DNA of 55,369 nt from Thermodesulfovibrio sp. (GTDB lineage Bacteria > Nitrospirota > Thermodesulfovibrionia > UBA6902): the NCBI GenBank assembly GCA_026982355.1, contig JALSHG010000080.1, forward strand, positions 1 to 55,369, in the 5' to 3' direction. This document shows, in pieces, positions 185-52,378 of this stretch. Within the stretch, counting starts at the first letter, position 1; each line of letters begins with the position of its first letter. The notes under the pieces are model-generated. The model saw only the letters and a list, made by a program, of their open reading frames with translations. It did no database searches and was not told the DNA's origin. Both the position numbers and the translations under genes were made by a program.

Positions 185-262
185 GGAGGATATAGCTCAG
201 TTGGTTAGAGCGCTTGGTTGTGGCCCAAGAGGTCGCGGGTTCAAATCCCGCTATCCTCCCCA
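185..262 (+). tRNA. tRNA-His (anticodon GTG)
   Basis: The sequence folds as a complete cloverleaf. The anticodon stem CTTGG/CCAAG (213-217, 225-229) encloses loop TTGTGGC with anticodon GTG at 220-222. The extra 5' G (G-1, position 185) faces C73 (position 259), the identity pair peculiar to histidine tRNA. CCA is encoded (260-262). The gene lies 42 bases before hisS, whose product charges this tRNA, so the tRNA and its synthetase appear to be co-transcribed. Confidence 0.97.
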
Positions 263-304: not shown

Positions 305-1669
305 ATGTCATACATTGAAGAATTAAAATCAGCAAAAGGGGTGAAAGACTGGTACGGCAAACAGGCCATTCTCAGAAACTACGTGAGGGACACTCTGAGG
401 GGCGTGTTTGAGCGGTACGGCTACAATCCCGTGGAGACCCCCGTGATTGAACGCGAGGAAGTGCTGAGCCTGAAAGGCGGCGGCGAGATACAGAAGGAGG
501 TGTTCCGCCTGACGGACCAGGGCAAAAGGAGGCTGGCGCTGCGCTTTGACCAGACTCTGCCGCTGGCAAGGTTTTATGCAAACCACCCTGAGTTGAAAAG
601 CCCCTACAAGCGTTATGCCATAGGTGATGTCTTCAGGGACGGCCCGGCCCAGCCCGAACAGGGGCGGTACAGGATTTTCACACAGTGCGATGTGGATATT
701 ATCGGTGTGGAAAACATGGCCGCGGAGGCCGAGCTGCTTACCCTGGCGTATGATGCCTTCAGGGAACTGGGGCTTGGTGATGTCACGGTGAAGATAAACA
801 ACAGGAAGGTCCTTGACGGTATCATGGATGCGGCGGGTATTCCGGATTCCGTAAAGGTGGAAGCCATTCTCGTCCTTGACAAGCTGGAGAAGATCGGCAC
901 GGATGAAGTGAAAAAGGAGCTGTCCCGCATAGGCGGCGGCCTTTTGCCGGGCACTGCAGTGGATGCCCTGATAGGGCATACCTCCATCCATGGAACCAAC
1001 GAGGAGAAAATGGATTGCCTGGGCCGCATCATGACCTCTGATGCAGGCGGGCAGGGACTGGGGGAGATACGCGGGTTGCTGTCATACTGCGAGGAGATGG
1101 AATTTGACTTTGTCGAATTCGACCCCTCGCTTGCCCGGGGCCTGGATTATTATACCGGCACCACCATCGAGGTCTTTCTGAAGAAAAAGGATATCGTCGG
1201 TTCCGCTATTGTCGCAGGCGGGCGTTTCGACAATATGATCGGTGACTTCAGGGGCGCGGGGACCGCGGTGCCGGCCGTGGGCCTTTCGTTCGGCCTGGAG
1301 AGGACATGCATGGCCGTGGAATCGGTCATGTCGGGCACGAAAGAGACGGTCACCGAGCTGTTCATTATACCCCTGAACACCCTGTCCGTGAGTCTGAAGC
1401 TCGCGCACGTCATCAGGCAGCAGAGGATAAACGTTGATATAGATCTGACGGGCAGGAGCCTGAAATCCGCGATGCGTTATGCCGACTCGCTCGATATCCC
1501 CTTTGTGGGAATTATCGGCGAAGACGAGGTCGTAAAACAAGTCATCACCATAAAAAGGCTGAGCGACGGCCTTCAGAATCAGATCGCGGTGAGCGGTGTT
1601 AAATCATATTTGGATATAAACAGGGATTCGGGGAAAAGCATGAACAGACTCGTGCTGCATAAACCTTAA
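305..1669 (+). CDS. hisS: Histidyl-tRNA synthetase
   Basis: Class II aminoacyl-tRNA synthetase (454 aa) that attaches histidine to tRNA-His. The N-terminal catalytic core has motif 2 region FTQCDVDIIG and the two histidine-binding signatures RGLDYYTG (about residue 280) and GGRFDNM. The last 100 or so residues match an anticodon-binding domain. The start has no strong ribosome-binding site but gives the expected N-terminus. It follows tRNA-His and is followed by hisZ, itself a HisS paralogue. The last codons (LHKP then TAA) lie inside a palindromic repeat element, so the element supplies the stop codon and the native C-terminus may once have been slightly different. Confidence 0.96.
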   Translation: MSYIEELKSAKGVKDWYGKQAILRNYVRDTLRGVFERYGYNPVETPVIEREEVLSLKGGGEIQKEVFRLTDQGKRRLALRFDQTLPLARFYANHPELKSPYKRYAIGDVFRDGPAQPEQGRYRIFTQCDVDIIGVENMAAEAELLTLAYDAFRELGLGDVTVKINNRKVLDGIMDAAGIPDSVKVEAILVLDKLEKIGTDEVKKELSRIGGGLLPGTAVDALIGHTSIHGTNEEKMDCLGRIMTSDAGGQGLGEIRGLLSYCEEMEFDFVEFDPSLARGLDYYTGTTIEVFLKKKDIVGSAIVAGGRFDNMIGDFRGAGTAVPAVGLSFGLERTCMAVESVMSGTKETVTELFIIPLNTLSVSLKLAHVIRQQRINVDIDLTGRSLKSAMRYADSLDIPFVGIIGEDEVVKQVITIKRLSDGLQNQIAVSGVKSYLDINRDSGKSMNRLVLHKP

Positions 1670-1779: not shown

Positions 1780-3051
1780 ATGAAAAACAACAAGAACGCA
1801 ACGGTTTCAACAGGGAATGACCTCCTGCCCGGGGATATCGTGAAATTCAGGATCGTGGAGGCGGCATTCCTGGAGAGGTGCCGCCAGTTCGGATACAGGG
1901 AGATAAAGACATCCACGATCGAGCCCCTGCATATCTTTACGGCGGCAGGCGCCCTGTCCCCGGGCCTGCTGAAAAAGGTCTGCTCATTCCTGGACTGGGG
2001 GGGGTGGAGCCGCGAGAGGGTCGCCCTGCGGGCGGACAGCACCGTCTCGGCGGCGAGGTACTACCTGGACAATTTAAGGGAAGAGGGACATGTGAAGGTT
2101 TGTTACATAGAGAACCAGTTCCGCCGCGGTGATACGGGACAGGAGGTTTCCGAGAGATGGCAGCTCGGCATAGAAAACATCGGGGATGATTCACCTGTTT
2201 CTGATGTCGAGGTCATATTCATCGCCGCTGACACGCTCAGGGCCGCGGGTTTCGGCGATATACGCCTGCACCTCTCCTTCCCTTCCGTTATTATTGAATA
2301 CGTGAACCTCGCGTTCGGCCGGCCTGAAGAGAGGCAGAAAGTCCTCGAGCTGATCAGGGACGGCAGGCATGAGGACATAAAATCCCTTGGCGGTGACGGG
2401 GACACGGATATCCTGTTCAGGCTCCTCTGCTTCAGGGGTGAGAACGTCTCGTATCTGAACAACCTGAGAAGCGACTTTCACAACCATGGAAAAATCCTCG
2501 GGCACCTGGAGCGCTTCAGCGAAATATGCGTATTGCTGGAGCGGCTGAAGTGTCCTTATGAGATCAATTTTTCGCTGTCAGGGAATTTCGACTATTACAC
2601 GGGCATTCAGTTCGAGGTACTGTCCCCGTCCCGGAAAGCTTCCGACAGGGAAGTCCTTTGCACCGGCGGGCGCTATGACAACCTGATAGGCAGCCTTGCG
2701 CCCCGGGGCGCAAGGTCCGTACCGTCTGTCGGGTTTGCGCTGAACCTGAAAAATGCGATCGCCCGTATGCAGGAACCCGGGGATACCATGCAGAATATAG
2801 GCATTATGCTCAGGAATATAACATATGAGAATATAAAGACCGGCCAGAACCTGTGCATCAGGCTGAACCGCCTCGGATTTATATCACGCCTCTCTTTTTC
2901 GGAGATAGCGGAGGATGAGTACGGTGATTACGGACTCATAATCGAGGTGGACCGCGAGAGGTTCAGGGACGGTTACAGCATCATCCACAGCCGGAAGATC
3001 GGCAAACCGCTTCTGAAGAATATTTTCGGTGAATCCTCTCATGACGCATGA
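1780..3051 (+). CDS. hisZ: HisZ-like ATP phosphoribosyltransferase regulatory subunit
   Basis: HisS-like protein (423 aa) without aminoacylation function. HisZ partners the short form of HisG in the first step of histidine synthesis and confers feedback control. The class II core is recognisable (FRRGDTGQ, GNFDYYTG, GGRYDNLIG), but the synthetase residues RGLDYYTG are altered to GNFDYYTG. Start chosen at ATG 1780 after AAGGGAG. Two HisG homologues follow at once, the first overlapping its 3' end, which supports the HisZ assignment over a second HisS. It is slightly long for the family, with an extra C-terminal segment of about 60 residues after residue 345. Confidence 0.85.
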   Translation: MKNNKNATVSTGNDLLPGDIVKFRIVEAAFLERCRQFGYREIKTSTIEPLHIFTAAGALSPGLLKKVCSFLDWGGWSRERVALRADSTVSAARYYLDNLREEGHVKVCYIENQFRRGDTGQEVSERWQLGIENIGDDSPVSDVEVIFIAADTLRAAGFGDIRLHLSFPSVIIEYVNLAFGRPEERQKVLELIRDGRHEDIKSLGGDGDTDILFRLLCFRGENVSYLNNLRSDFHNHGKILGHLERFSEICVLLERLKCPYEINFSLSGNFDYYTGIQFEVLSPSRKASDREVLCTGGRYDNLIGSLAPRGARSVPSVGFALNLKNAIARMQEPGDTMQNIGIMLRNITYENIKTGQNLCIRLNRLGFISRLSFSEIAEDEYGDYGLIIEVDRERFRDGYSIIHSRKIGKPLLKNIFGESSHDA

Positions 3052-3709
3052 AATAGCCCTGTGCCTGCCGAAAGGGGAAAACCTCAGGCGTGTTGCATCG
3101 GTATTAAAGCAGGTGAACTTCCCGGTGGAGGGTTACAATGCATCAAACCGCTCCTACCGGCCCGACATCCCTTCCATAAAAAACGCCAGGGCCAAGATAT
3201 TTGCCGAAAAGGATGTGGCCATACAGGTGGCGGTGGGGAATTATTCCATAGGTATCTGCGGACTGGACTGGATAGAGGAGTACAGGGCGAAATACCCTGC
3301 GTCCGATGTGCAGATACTGAAAAGGCTGGGCAGAAGCCTGAGAAGGCTCCATGCCTGCTGCCACAGGAGCTTTGAAGGCGGCTTCGTCCATGATTTCGCC
3401 CGGCTGTCGGGGTCGGTCCGGATCGTCAGCGAATATCCCAATCTTGCAGAGGACTTTGCGATCAGGAAGGGGCTTAAGAGATTCAGGGTATTCCCTGCAT
3501 GGGGCAGCACAGAGGTCTATCCGCCCGAGCATGCGGAGATCGTAATCCTGTCCGTGAGGGATGAAGAATCTTTTAAGGCGCACGGCCTGAGGTCGCTGGA
3601 GCTAATCATGGAATCGGAGCTCTGTATCATCGTCAATCAGAGGGCGTATGAGACAAAAGACCTTTCACCCGTGCTGGACTATCTCTGCAGGATGGAGAGG
3701 AGGCGCTGA
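3041..3709 (+). CDS. HisG-like protein 1 (short form, substrate loop degenerate)
   Basis: Homologue of short-form ATP phosphoribosyltransferase (222 aa), the catalytic subunit that joins ATP to PRPP. LPKG is kept near the N-terminus (residues 9-12), followed by a GNYSIGICGLDW segment, SEYPN (130-134) and WGSTEV (154-159). The PRPP-phosphate loop, normally TGTTL-like, is replaced by LSVRDEESFKAHGL (170-183), so this copy may not be catalytic alone. Start at ATG 3041 overlaps hisZ by 11 bases with GGTGA upstream; a GTG at 3029 is an alternative. Its stop overlaps the start of the next hisG-like gene (TGATG), implying coupled translation and probably a shared complex. Confidence 0.8.
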   Translation: MTHEIALCLPKGENLRRVASVLKQVNFPVEGYNASNRSYRPDIPSIKNARAKIFAEKDVAIQVAVGNYSIGICGLDWIEEYRAKYPASDVQILKRLGRSLRRLHACCHRSFEGGFVHDFARLSGSVRIVSEYPNLAEDFAIRKGLKRFRVFPAWGSTEVYPPEHAEIVILSVRDEESFKAHGLRSLELIMESELCIIVNQRAYETKDLSPVLDYLCRMERRR

Positions 3710-4425
3710 TGCTGAATTTCGCCATACCGGACGGGCACCAGATGAGGCACGTGCTGAACTTCTTCGGCAGGGCCGGTATTTGTTTCGAAGGATATGAGCC
3801 TGAATCGCTGAACAGGCGGCCCGTGCTGAAGATCACCTCCGGGGAGGCAGGCAGGATATTGAACAATCCGGAGGCGGTCATGACAAAGGTGATCAGGCCG
3901 CAGGACATGCCCATGCACGTGGCGGCCAACAATTTCGATATCGCCATCACCGGCACGGACTGGCTGAAGGAGCACATGATCCGCTTTCCAGGCAGCCCTG
4001 TTGAAAACCTGCTCGAGATGGGATTCGGCAGGGTGAGGATCGTTGCCGCGGTGCACGAATCCCTGCCTGTATCCAGTGTGAATGAACTGACGGATTACCT
4101 GAATTCCTTCGGGCCCGACCGGAATTTCAGGATAGCCTCGGAATATACCTATATCGCCGATGACTATGCAAGGGAGCACAACCTGTACAGGTACAGCATC
4201 ATCATGACCTACGGCGCCACCGAATCGCTGATCCCCGAGGATGCGGAGATGATCATAGAGAACACCGAGACCGGCGCCACGCTGCAGAAAAACAGTCTGA
4301 GGATCATTGACACCCTGTTTGAATCCCAGGGCTGTCTCATTGCCAACAGGGCGAGCATTGCATCCAGGGACAAGGGAAAGATCATCAGGTCGGTAAAGAC
4401 CCTCTTTGAGGCCCATGTGCAGTAA
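3709..4425 (+). CDS. hisG: HisG-like protein 2 (ATP phosphoribosyltransferase, short form)
   Basis: Second HisG homologue (238 aa) in the same operon. It has the domain-hinge segment FDIAITGTDWL (76-86), IASEY (142-146), GATES (169-173) and a clear phosphate-binding loop ETGATL (187-192), comparable to the family TGTTL. The N-terminal LPKG of the family is changed to IPDG (6-9). It therefore complements copy 1, which keeps LPKG and loses the loop. This is the better candidate for the catalytic subunit working with HisZ. No other histidine genes lie in the window. A palindromic element begins one to two bases after its stop codon. Confidence 0.82.
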   Translation: MLNFAIPDGHQMRHVLNFFGRAGICFEGYEPESLNRRPVLKITSGEAGRILNNPEAVMTKVIRPQDMPMHVAANNFDIAITGTDWLKEHMIRFPGSPVENLLEMGFGRVRIVAAVHESLPVSSVNELTDYLNSFGPDRNFRIASEYTYIADDYAREHNLYRYSIIMTYGATESLIPEDAEMIIENTETGATLQKNSLRIIDTLFESQGCLIANRASIASRDKGKIIRSVKTLFEAHVQ

Positions 4426-4426
4426 T

Positions 4427-4521
4427 AAACCTTACGGTGGCATAAAAATACCGCCCGCTGGCAGGATGGCCGGGAGGCTTTCCGGCGGACTCCGCAGCGT
4501 GCTTGTGCAACATTAAGGTTA
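4427..4521. repeat. Palindromic intergenic element, copy 2
   Basis: Termini CCTTACGGTGGCATAA (4430) and, inverted, TTGTGCAACATTAAGG (ending 4518) bound a GC-rich interior with CCGCCCG and CCGGCGGACTCC. It sits exactly between two convergent genes. The reverse-strand gene reads its stop TAA from the edge of the element (4519-4521), and the forward hisG-like gene stops at 4425. It may act as a bidirectional terminator. Confidence 0.85.
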
Positions 4522-6333: not shown

Positions 6334-6548
6334 ACCTTACAGTGGCATAAAAATGCCGCCCGCGGGCAGGGGAGTCCGGCGGAAAAGCTTTATCTGCGAT
6401 ACCTTGGAGAGTATTCCGCACGGCTTATCGACATCCTCTGGAATTTCACTCTCCGTTACGTCCTGCAATAAAGACATATTTCAGATATCCCATCGCTTTA
6501 TAAAGGTTTTACGCCGGACTCCCCTGCCGGCTTGTGCAACATTAAGGT
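6334..6548. repeat. Palindromic element, copy 3 (longest, 50-bp inverted ends)
   Basis: The left arm starts CCTTACAGTGGCATAAAAA at 6335. The right arm, reversed, reads CCTTAATGTTGCACAAGCC. Both then run into GGCAGGGGAGTCCGGCG. About 110 bases of unrelated sequence lie between the arms. This copy shows best that the family consists of two inverted ends around a variable centre. The left end supplies AAGG before the HndC-like start, and the right end touches the stop of the small gene at 6549. Confidence 0.85.
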
Positions 6549-8523: not shown

Positions 8524-8545
8524 CGAGTCATTGCAATTGCAATAA

Positions 8546-8615
8546 ACCTTAATGTGGCATAAAAATGCCGCCCGCGGGCAGGATGCCCTGCCGGAAAAGC
8601 CTTATCTGCGTTACC
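8546..8615. repeat. Palindromic element, copy 4 (single arm)
   Basis: Begins CCTTAATGTGGCATAAAAA (8548) and continues TGCCGCCCGCGGGCAGG, then GGAAAAGCCTTATCTGCG, which matches the interior of copy 3 (GGAAAAGCTTTATCTGCG). No opposite arm is found before the hairpin at 8643, so this is half an element. Confidence 0.75.
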
Positions 8616-22041: not shown

Positions 22042-22111
22042 CCCTTAATGTTGCATAAACGGGCATGCTCTCCTGTCCGCGGGCGGTGTTTTTATGCCAC
22101 TGTAAGGTTAC
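22041..22111. repeat. Palindromic element, copy 7
   Basis: CCTTAATGTTGCATAA (22044) and, inverted, TTATGCCACTGTAAGG (to 22107) flank CTCTCCTGTCCGCGGGCGGTG. It begins at the toxin stop codon. Its right half is the start of the right direct repeat. Confidence 0.88.
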
Positions 22112-28812: not shown

Positions 28813-28882
28813 AACCTTACAGTGGCATAAAAATGCCGGCGGCGGAACAGCCTCCCCTGCACGTTTATGCCGCATTAAGGTA
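28813..28882. repeat. Palindromic element, copy 9
   Basis: CCTTACAGTGGCATAA (28816) and, inverted, TTATGCCGCATTAAGG (to 28880) flank ATGCCGGCGGCGGAACAGCCTCCCC. It lies between the divergent genes fprA and typA, upstream of both starts. Confidence 0.85.
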
Positions 28883-29018: not shown

Positions 29019-30866
29019 ATGAGACACGAACATCTGAGAAATATCGCGATTATCGCACATGTGGACCACGGCAAGACCACGCTCGTGGATTGCATGCTGA
29101 AACAGGCCGGCACCTTCCGTTCCACGGAAACGGTGATGGAGCGTGTCATGGACAACACCGACCTGGAGCGGGAACGGGGAATCACCATACTGGCGAAAAA
29201 CACCGCCGTTGATTTCAACGGGGTGAAGATAAATATTGTCGACACCCCTGGACATGCGGATTTCGGCGGTGAAGTTGAACGGACGCTCAAGATGGTGGAC
29301 GGTGTCCTGCTGCTCGTGGACGCCTCCGAGGGTCCCCTGCCCCAGACAAGGTTCGTGCTGAAAAAGACGCTGGAGCTCAACCTGCCTCCAATACTGGTGA
29401 TCAACAAGATAGACAGGCCGGATGCGCGGATACAGGAAGTGCTGAATGAAGTCTACGACATGTTCATAGACCTTGACGCCGCTGAGGAGCAACTGGAATT
29501 CCCCATAGTTTATACCAATGCAAAAAAAGGCACCGCGCAGCTCGATATACGGGATGAACCCTGCACTCTCATGCCCCTCTTTGATCTCATCCTGCAGACC
29601 ATCCCCGCTCCGGAAGGAGACGGCCGGGGGCCATTGCAGGTACTGATTACCAACATCGATTACAATGACTATGTGGGCAGGCTGGCCGTCGGCAGAATAT
29701 TTTCAGGCACCGTACGCACCGGGGATGCCGTGGGCGTGGCGGCGGGAAACGGCGATGTATACGCAACACGGATCACCTCGCTTTATACGTTCAAGGGGCT
29801 CCGGCGCGTGGAAACCGCGGAGGCATCCGTGGGTGACATAATCGCCCTTGCCGGCATGGAGGGAGTAAACATAGGGGATACCATCACGGACATGAAAAAT
29901 CCCAGGCCCCTCCCCAAGATCAAGGTGGATGAACCGACCATTTCAATGGTCTTTTCCGTCAACACGTCGCCTTTCTCCGGGAGGGAGGGGAAATTCGTCA
30001 CATCGAGGCACCTGAAGGAACGGCTCGAAAAAGAGCTTCTCTACAATGTATCCATCAGGGTGGATTTCGACAACCCCGATGCATTCAGGGTAATGGGCCG
30101 GGGAGAGCTCCAACTGGCTATCCTGATCGAGATGATGAGGCGGGAGGGTTACGAATTGTCGGCATCCATGCCGGAGACCGTTACAAAGACCAGAAACGGG
30201 GTTGTGTATGAGCCCATGGAGCTGCTGGTCGTTGATGTGCCGGAGAAGTACGCCGGCGCCGTAATCCGGCAGGCCGGCGCGAGCAGGGGAAAGATGCTCA
30301 GGATGCTGAACAACGGCCGCGGCAGGGTGAGGCTCGAGTTCAGGATACCCTCGCGCGGACTGATCGGGTTCAGATCGAGGTTCCTCACCGACACGCGGGG
30401 CACGGGGCTGCTGAACCACCTGTTTGACGGGTATGAACCGTGGCAGGGTTATATGACCAGGAGAAGCACGGGCGCACTGGTGGCGGACAGGCCGGGGAAG
30501 GCCACGCCCTATGCGCTCTTTCACTTGCAGCCGAGGGGCACTCTGTTTATAAGGGAAAACACCCGTGTTTACGAGGGAATGATCGTGGGAGAGAACTCCC
30601 GGGGAAACGACCTGAATGTCAACATCACCCGTGAGAAGAAGCTCACCAATATCAGGGCCGCGGCCTCGGACGAGGCGCTCCAGCTGATACCGGTGAAGAC
30701 CCTCAGCCTGGAAGAGGCCGTAGAGTTTATCAGGGAGGATGAGCTGGTGGAGATAACGCCGCTGTCCATACGTCTGAGGAAAAAGGTGCTCGCCGCCAGT
30801 ATGCGGCCCAGGGTGAACAGAGAGAAAACCTTAATGTTGCATAAGCCGGCAGGGGAGTCGCCGTAA
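29019..30866 (+). CDS. typA: Ribosome-associated GTPase TypA/BipA
   Basis: Translational GTPase (615 aa) related to EF-G, which assists ribosome assembly and stress adaptation. The G-domain begins [16 protein letters not shown] and includes [19 protein letters not shown] and [11 protein letters not shown]-like domains follow, with the TypA-specific C-terminal part [19 protein letters not shown] and [11 protein letters not shown]. The start at 29019 follows AGGA. The last 11 or so residues ([11 protein letters not shown]) are encoded by a palindromic element that has replaced the native end; TypA normally ends shortly after this point, so function is probably intact. Confidence 0.96.
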
Positions 30867-30917
30867 AACCTCCGGGCTCTACCGCCCGCGGGCGATGTTT
30901 CTATGCCGCTGCAAGGA
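30827..30917. repeat. Palindromic element, copy 10 (inside typA 3' end)
   Basis: CCTTAATGTTGCATAA (30829) and, inverted, CTATGCCGCTGCAAGG (to 30916) flank GCCGGCAGGGGAGTCGCCG and ACCGCCCGCGGGCGATG. The left 40 bases are translated as the C-terminal tail of TypA, with the stop inside the element. Confidence 0.85.
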
Positions 30918-52305: not shown

Positions 52306-52378
52306 ACCCTTGCAGTGGCATAAAAATACCGCCTGTGAGCAGGAGAGTCGGTAGGGTGTACGCCGGACTCCGCTCCCC
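52306..52378. repeat. Palindromic element, copy 13 (diverged right arm)
   Basis: CCTTGCAGTGGCATAAAAATACCGCC (52308) is a good left arm. The right side GTACGCCGGACTCCGCTCCCC keeps the inner part of the other arm but lacks the GCATAA-type terminus. It fills the gap before nrdJ. Confidence 0.75.

Follow-up and report, generated by a model that had tools for sequence, protein, structure and literature searches.

Two diverged HisG paralogues as a predicted asymmetric ATP phosphoribosyltransferase in Nitrospirota and Chloroflexota

Histidine synthesis in one Nitrospirota genome appears to begin with an ATP phosphoribosyltransferase (ATP-PRT) made from two different HisG proteins together with a HisZ-like subunit. 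We put at about three in four the probability that hisZ, hisG1 and hisG2 encode the ATP-PRT of this genome and that the enzyme is asymmetric and HisZ-regulated, with one composite active site per HisG1–HisG2 pair, as predicted from the residues that the two proteins have kept. By gene content and fold the system is a HisG-family ATP-PRT; it would also have that activity. ATP-PRT is the first enzyme of histidine synthesis and a textbook allosteric enzyme. Its long form, HisGL, as in Escherichia coli and Mycobacterium tuberculosis, forms homohexamers, includes a regulatory domain of its own and works without HisZ. The short form, HisGS–HisZ, known from Lactococcus lactis, Thermotoga maritima, Psychrobacter arcticus and Acinetobacter baumannii, contains a single HisG homodimer with two equivalent sites and assembles with HisZ into a hetero-octamer. 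These are the two forms described (PMC10795190, PMC8305728). The pair presented here is likely to be a third: an obligate, asymmetric HisG1–HisG2 pair, separate or fused, with one composite site. Such a form would be ancient and widespread in one class of Chloroflexota, and would travel together with hisZ, in Nitrospirota with hisS as well, as a unit that took the place of the native long-form HisG.

The locus lies near the start of the window, the whole stretch of 55,369 nucleotides that was analysed (Table 1). A sequence-only reading had described hisZ followed by two tandem HisG homologues, and gene calls together with Pfam and NCBIfam scores bear out this order and the coordinates. Both HisG products exceed the family cut-offs of PF01634 (82.5 bits for hisG1 and 120.8 for hisG2; cut-off 25.5) and TIGR00070 (96.8 and 119.7 bits; cut-off 75.75), and the hisZ-like product scores 154 bits with TIGR00443 (cut-off 271.65). 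As that reading had it, tRNA-His and hisS lie upstream and the genes overlap, hisZ and hisG1 by 11 bases and hisG1 and hisG2 by 1 base (TGATG). The ATG assigned as the start of hisG1 agrees with relatives; the mechanical open reading frame (ORF) opens at GTG 3029. Both HisG products are without a C-terminal regulatory domain, as is short-form HisG (about 210 aa). In the alignment described below, HisG1 carries the motif LPKGEN and no T-G-x-T-L, and HisG2 carries IPDGHQ together with the T-G-A-T-L loop core. A search of Rfam for an RNA regulatory element upstream of the block matched the tRNA alone. A dispersed, REP- or MITE-like palindromic element of about 95 bp, with ends TGCATAAACCTTAATG and CATTAAGGTTTATGCA, occupies intergenic gaps in the window and is also found in two other loci (L054, L055); one copy lies between hisS and hisZ, where a related species (G001) has only a few bases.

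Table 1 Features of the hisS–hisZ–hisG1–hisG2 locus and copies of the palindromic element (window coordinates)
Feature	Position	Strand	Remarks
tRNA-His (anticodon GTG)	186..262	+	5' of the hisS-hisZ-hisG1-hisG2 block
hisS (HisRS)	305..1669	+	profile matches; sole HisRS of the window genome
hisZ-like regulatory subunit, HisRS paralogue	1780..3051	+	best model TIGR00443, below cut-off
hisG1 (HisG copy 1)	3041..3709	+	222 aa; LPKG (K11) and R37 kept; without PRPP-phosphate loop
hisG1 Lys11 codon	3071..3073	+	LPKG lysine, A. baumannii K27
hisG1 Arg37 codon	3149..3151	+	A. baumannii R53, P. arcticus R56, residue crossing the dimer interface
hisG1 segment SVRDEESFKA	3551..3580	+	expected position of the PRPP loop
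hisG2 (HisG copy 2)	3709..4425	+	238 aa; PRPP loop intact; LPKG changed to IPDGH; without Arg in the R53 column
hisG2 PRPP-phosphate loop core T188-G-A-T-L192	4270..4284	+	from alignment
Palindromic element copies	1655-1757, 4423-4518, 6334-6385, 8534-8588		intergenic
Palindromic element copies	22068-22109, 28813-28845, 30829-30916, 52308-52373		intergenic

The window belongs to a 2.62-Mb Nitrospirota metagenome-assembled genome (MAG; G000) that is 100% complete and 0.55% contaminated. A PF01634 search of this MAG returned exactly two matches, hisG1 and hisG2, and no canonical hisG; nor was a long-form HisGL gene (about 290 aa, with the C-terminal regulatory domain) found there. Other pathway genes are present on other contigs, encoding HisD (C77), HisA and HisF (C1), HisB (C28) and HisI (C13), and none of them lies in the window, in agreement with the remark that no other histidine genes are nearby. 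In a related MAG (G017, locus L058), a 291-aa long-form hisG follows hisD; in the window genome and in one further species of the genus (G002), no hisG is found behind hisD, although the stretch is assembled. Three genomes of the same family (G010, G003 and G008) have hisD, hisA and hisF and zero PF01634 matches; G010 has an estimated completeness of 100%, and the absence of HisG in the three may reflect missing data or yet another first enzyme.

Among the 396 Nitrospirota genomes sampled, the pair is restricted to the genus, G017 and the Magnetocorallium group. Two further species of the genus (G001 and G002) and Candidatus Magnetocorallium (G136), which belongs to another family and is 99% complete, carry hisG1–hisG2 and no other HisG. 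The separate canonical hisG that the sequence-only reading had proposed to look for was thus absent from four carriers, but the fifth, G017 (78% complete), has a canonical long-form HisG in addition to the pair. Most other relatives have one canonical HisG each, HisGL being the form of most relatives of the window genome. In G017, hisD with long-form hisG and the pair block are on two contigs, C17 and C107 (L058, L059), and the GC contents of the two stretches are 0.46 and 0.40. Because the GC of the two stretches differs, mixed binning is possible; the co-occurrence may also represent a transitional state. In all five carriers, the hisS adjoining the pair is the only HisRS gene, and the other family members tested carry a different type of HisRS, with 31–35% identity to the window HisRS in partial matches. 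For this reason the hisS–hisZ–hisG1–hisG2 block looks like a transferred unit that would have displaced the native genes, with tRNA-His as part of it in four of the five: G001, G002 and G017 have the tRNA gene in the corresponding position, and Magnetocorallium does not. Two side observations concern the neighbourhood and wider occurrence of HisG genes. A gene of about 410 aa begins within a few bases of the end of hisG2 in G017 and Magnetocorallium (L035, 6721-7950; L036, 6715-7950), its products starting MMDNEMKYQDNIILTENNYIQY.. and MRYQNNIKLTEENYIQYK.. and being similar at the start; it is not found behind hisG2 in the window. In other families, several genomes (among G037 and G099-G112) have two HisG matches; in G037 one match lies in a short open frame of 213 aa and the other in a long one of 320 aa.

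A feature of the Chloroflexota homologues is that the two HisGs are joined. In one class, 242 of 393 genomes contain a relative of copy 1, nearly all of them with two matches, and the best 30 loci are all single ORFs holding both halves (30/30). The fused protein, of about 470 aa, is encoded downstream of hisZ, with the hisG1-like half first and the hisG2-like half second, and scores above the HisG family cut-offs (PF01634, TIGR00070); NCBIfam has no dedicated model for it. At one locus (L037), the ORF behind hisZ is similar to copy 1 in its first half, and its second half begins LPDGHQ...RPQDMPMHVANGNFD, like copy 2; the idea that this ORF is a lone single-gene HisG ancestor was rejected, as it is a fusion cut by the contig end. 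Two loci (L134, on a 1.12-Mb contig of G450, and L135) have the gene order hisZ–hisG1G2–hisD–aminotransferase (hisC-like)–hisB, and a third (L138) has hisZ–hisG1G2–hisD. A PF01634 search of 40 genomes with the fusion found it to be the only HisG in most; two also have a canonical HisG and two have a single PF01634 match. Chloroflexota genomes with megabase contigs have the fusion only. That the halves are fused in a constant order and lie within his operons argues strongly for their acting together in histidine synthesis.

The division of active-site residues between the halves was analysed by aligning 43 canonical HisGs with 35 first and 35 second halves (A. baumannii numbering). The column of R53, equivalent to Arg56 of P. 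arcticus, holds arginine in 43/43 canonical HisGs, 34/35 first halves and 0/35 second halves. T177 and G178 of the PRPP loop show the reverse: they are present in 43/43 canonical sequences and all second halves covering them, and are unconserved in the first halves. R70 follows the loop (42/43 canonical, with lysine in the remaining one; 34/35 second halves; 0/35 first halves), and E160 is present in all second halves and in 26 of the 35 first halves. Lysine at K27, in the LPKG motif, is found in all canonical HisGs and all 35 first halves, and its place is taken by aspartate in all 35 second halves. Copy 1 with LPKG and no PRPP loop, and copy 2 with the loop and IPDG in place of LPKG, had both been read from the sequence, and both descriptions hold against the 43 canonical HisGs; a shifted loop in copy 1 is rejected, since T177 and G178 are unconserved in all 35 aligned first halves, so that the loop is lost. 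The LPKG lysine is weakened as an invariant contribution of half 1 by three more divergent fusions, whose half 1 has lost it but retains the R53-column arginine and whose half 2 retains the loop; the complement of arginine and loop is therefore the constant feature. HisG2 lacks both the LPKG lysine and the next arginine (R32 in P. arcticus), and neither half retains Tyr77, which is invariant among the canonical HisGs aligned, so the ATP site must be somewhat different from that of canonical HisG, judging by sequence. Half 2 also has an arginine one to two residues before the proline that follows the R53 region, which may be a shifted equivalent of the R53-column arginine.

In the usual HisG homodimer, each of the two equivalent sites combines the PRPP loop of one subunit with an arginine of the other. 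Structural and kinetic work on P. arcticus ATP-PRT has shown that Arg56 of one subunit extends over the dimer interface as far as the pyrophosphate of the PRPP in its partner's site (PMC9734150). Given this action in trans, the complementary retention of arginine and loop is the pattern expected if a single site survived, with the loop coming from HisG2 and the arginine from HisG1, and the reciprocal site were dead.

In a phylogenetic tree, copy 1 groups with the first halves (support 99) and copy 2 with the second halves (support 96), and the two are sister clades (98) that stand apart from the canonical HisGs. This topology, from a quick tree with long branches, suggests one duplication, before the Chloroflexota and Nitrospirota versions separated. 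Within the genus, dN/dS is 0.06–0.09 for hisG1, 0.13–0.15 for hisG2, 0.14–0.21 for hisZ and 0.12–0.14 for hisS; thus hisG1, the copy without the PRPP loop, is the most constrained gene of the block. Its low dN/dS and the 57–60% identity conserved in Magnetocorallium hisG1 rule out that hisG1 is a pseudogene or decaying. An AlphaFold2 model of the fusion (27 sequences; pLDDT 83.0, pTM 0.80) predicts that each half is a complete HisG fold: residues 1–219 match short-form HisGs (11te, Z 23.8; 6fu7, Z 23.5) and residues 246–473 match Campylobacter jejuni HisG (Z 18.9). Window copy 1 modelled alone is likewise a complete domain (pLDDT 87.6, pTM 0.85). The high pTM of the fusion model lends indirect support to a defined pairing of the halves. 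No solved HisG chain of doubled length is among the matches listed in the structure comparison.

We hypothesize that an ancient duplication of HisG gave rise to two paralogues that now form an obligate pair, as two subunits in Nitrospirota and as a single head-to-tail chain in Chloroflexota, and that one of the two homodimer sites was abandoned. HisG2 would bind PRPP through its loop, Glu172 and Glu184, and HisG1 would supply Arg37 across the interface; the reciprocal site, made of the HisG1 PRPP loop and the HisG2 arginine, would have decayed. HisZ, an inactive HisRS paralogue, would activate the pair and convey histidine inhibition to it, the role that HisZ has in the short form. We infer, then, a HisG1–HisG2 heterodimer with a composite site, its activity and its regulation through HisZ. 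The earlier suggestion of a three-component ATP-PRT gains support from the absence of a canonical hisG, the presence of the rest of the pathway, the fusion and the his-operon context; assigning catalysis to one HisG and regulation to the other is probably an oversimplification, as the retained residues suggest that both furnish one site.

A related possibility, which we regard as unlikely, is that HisG2 is self-sufficient, acting as a homodimer with divergent residues, and that HisG1 is a regulatory or structural pseudoenzyme, serving for instance to sense AMP or histidine or to make the connection with HisZ, and giving no residue to the site. The missing loop in HisG1 and the intact one in HisG2 fit this, and pairs of an active enzyme and a pseudoenzyme paralogue have precedent, for example trypanosome AdoMetDC–prozyme (PMC5201418). 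However, the arginine that acts in trans in P. arcticus is conserved across the first halves, the most divergent included, and is found in its column in no HisG2 sequence, and fixed-order fusion argues for a fixed 1:1 pair.

It is far less probable that the pair transfers phosphoribosyl groups to some other nucleotide or base, with histidine synthesis either incomplete or started by an unrecognised first enzyme. The changes on the ATP side (LPKG to IPDG, loss of Tyr77) and the co-occurrence of the pair with a canonical HisG in G017 would be in keeping with another substrate, but the pair has HisZ as a partner, four of its carriers have no other HisG, and the window genome has hisD, hisA, hisF, hisB and hisI. 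The proposal of another purine nucleotide as substrate finds no support in the fusion either, which sits in hisZ–hisG1G2–hisD–hisC–hisB operons and is normally the only HisG of those genomes. That a canonical hisG is present and was left unassembled or unbinned, the pair being an accessory locus, is likewise highly improbable. The genomes are MAGs in many contigs, and the G017 bin holds both types; against this, canonical hisG is missing from three species of the genus as well as from an independent genome of 99% completeness, the stretch behind hisD where it would ancestrally lie is assembled without it in two of these (G000 and G002), and the Chloroflexota genomes with megabase contigs hold the fusion alone.

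The asymmetric HisG1–HisG2 pair resembles short-form HisGS–HisZ in having HisGs without a C-terminal regulatory domain, an adjoining HisZ gene, a PRPP loop, and an arginine equivalent to the one acting across the HisG dimer interface. It differs in that a pair of diverged paralogues, encoded separately or as a fusion and with losses that complement each other, takes the place of a one-gene homodimer, and in that each dimer is predicted to have one active site where the short form has two. Because neither HisG has the full set of active-site residues in the alignment, the pair falls outside the homodimeric, single-gene definition of the short form. With HisGL it shares the catalytic domain, the metabolic place in related genomes and, we infer, the reaction; unlike the pair, HisGL is a homohexamer with a regulatory domain and no HisZ, and it is absent from the window genome. 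AdoMetDC–prozyme (PMC5201418) is similar in keeping a paralogue without catalytic activity as a working partner, but it is an unrelated enzyme, and here both partners are predicted to furnish one shared site. In the open-access literature, most subscription journals being outside this coverage, a search for two, tandem or fused HisGs gave no account of the arrangement seen here.

The pair and its fusion point to a third form of ATP-PRT that has gone unnoticed, an arrangement that annotation pipelines miss when they score each half as 'hisG'. It would be a clear case of a homodimer passing to a division of labour after duplication. If the proposed mechanism is true, the pair would also provide a natural single-site version in which to study HisZ activation across the dimer interface, something hard to dissect in the symmetric enzyme, where every subunit plays both parts.
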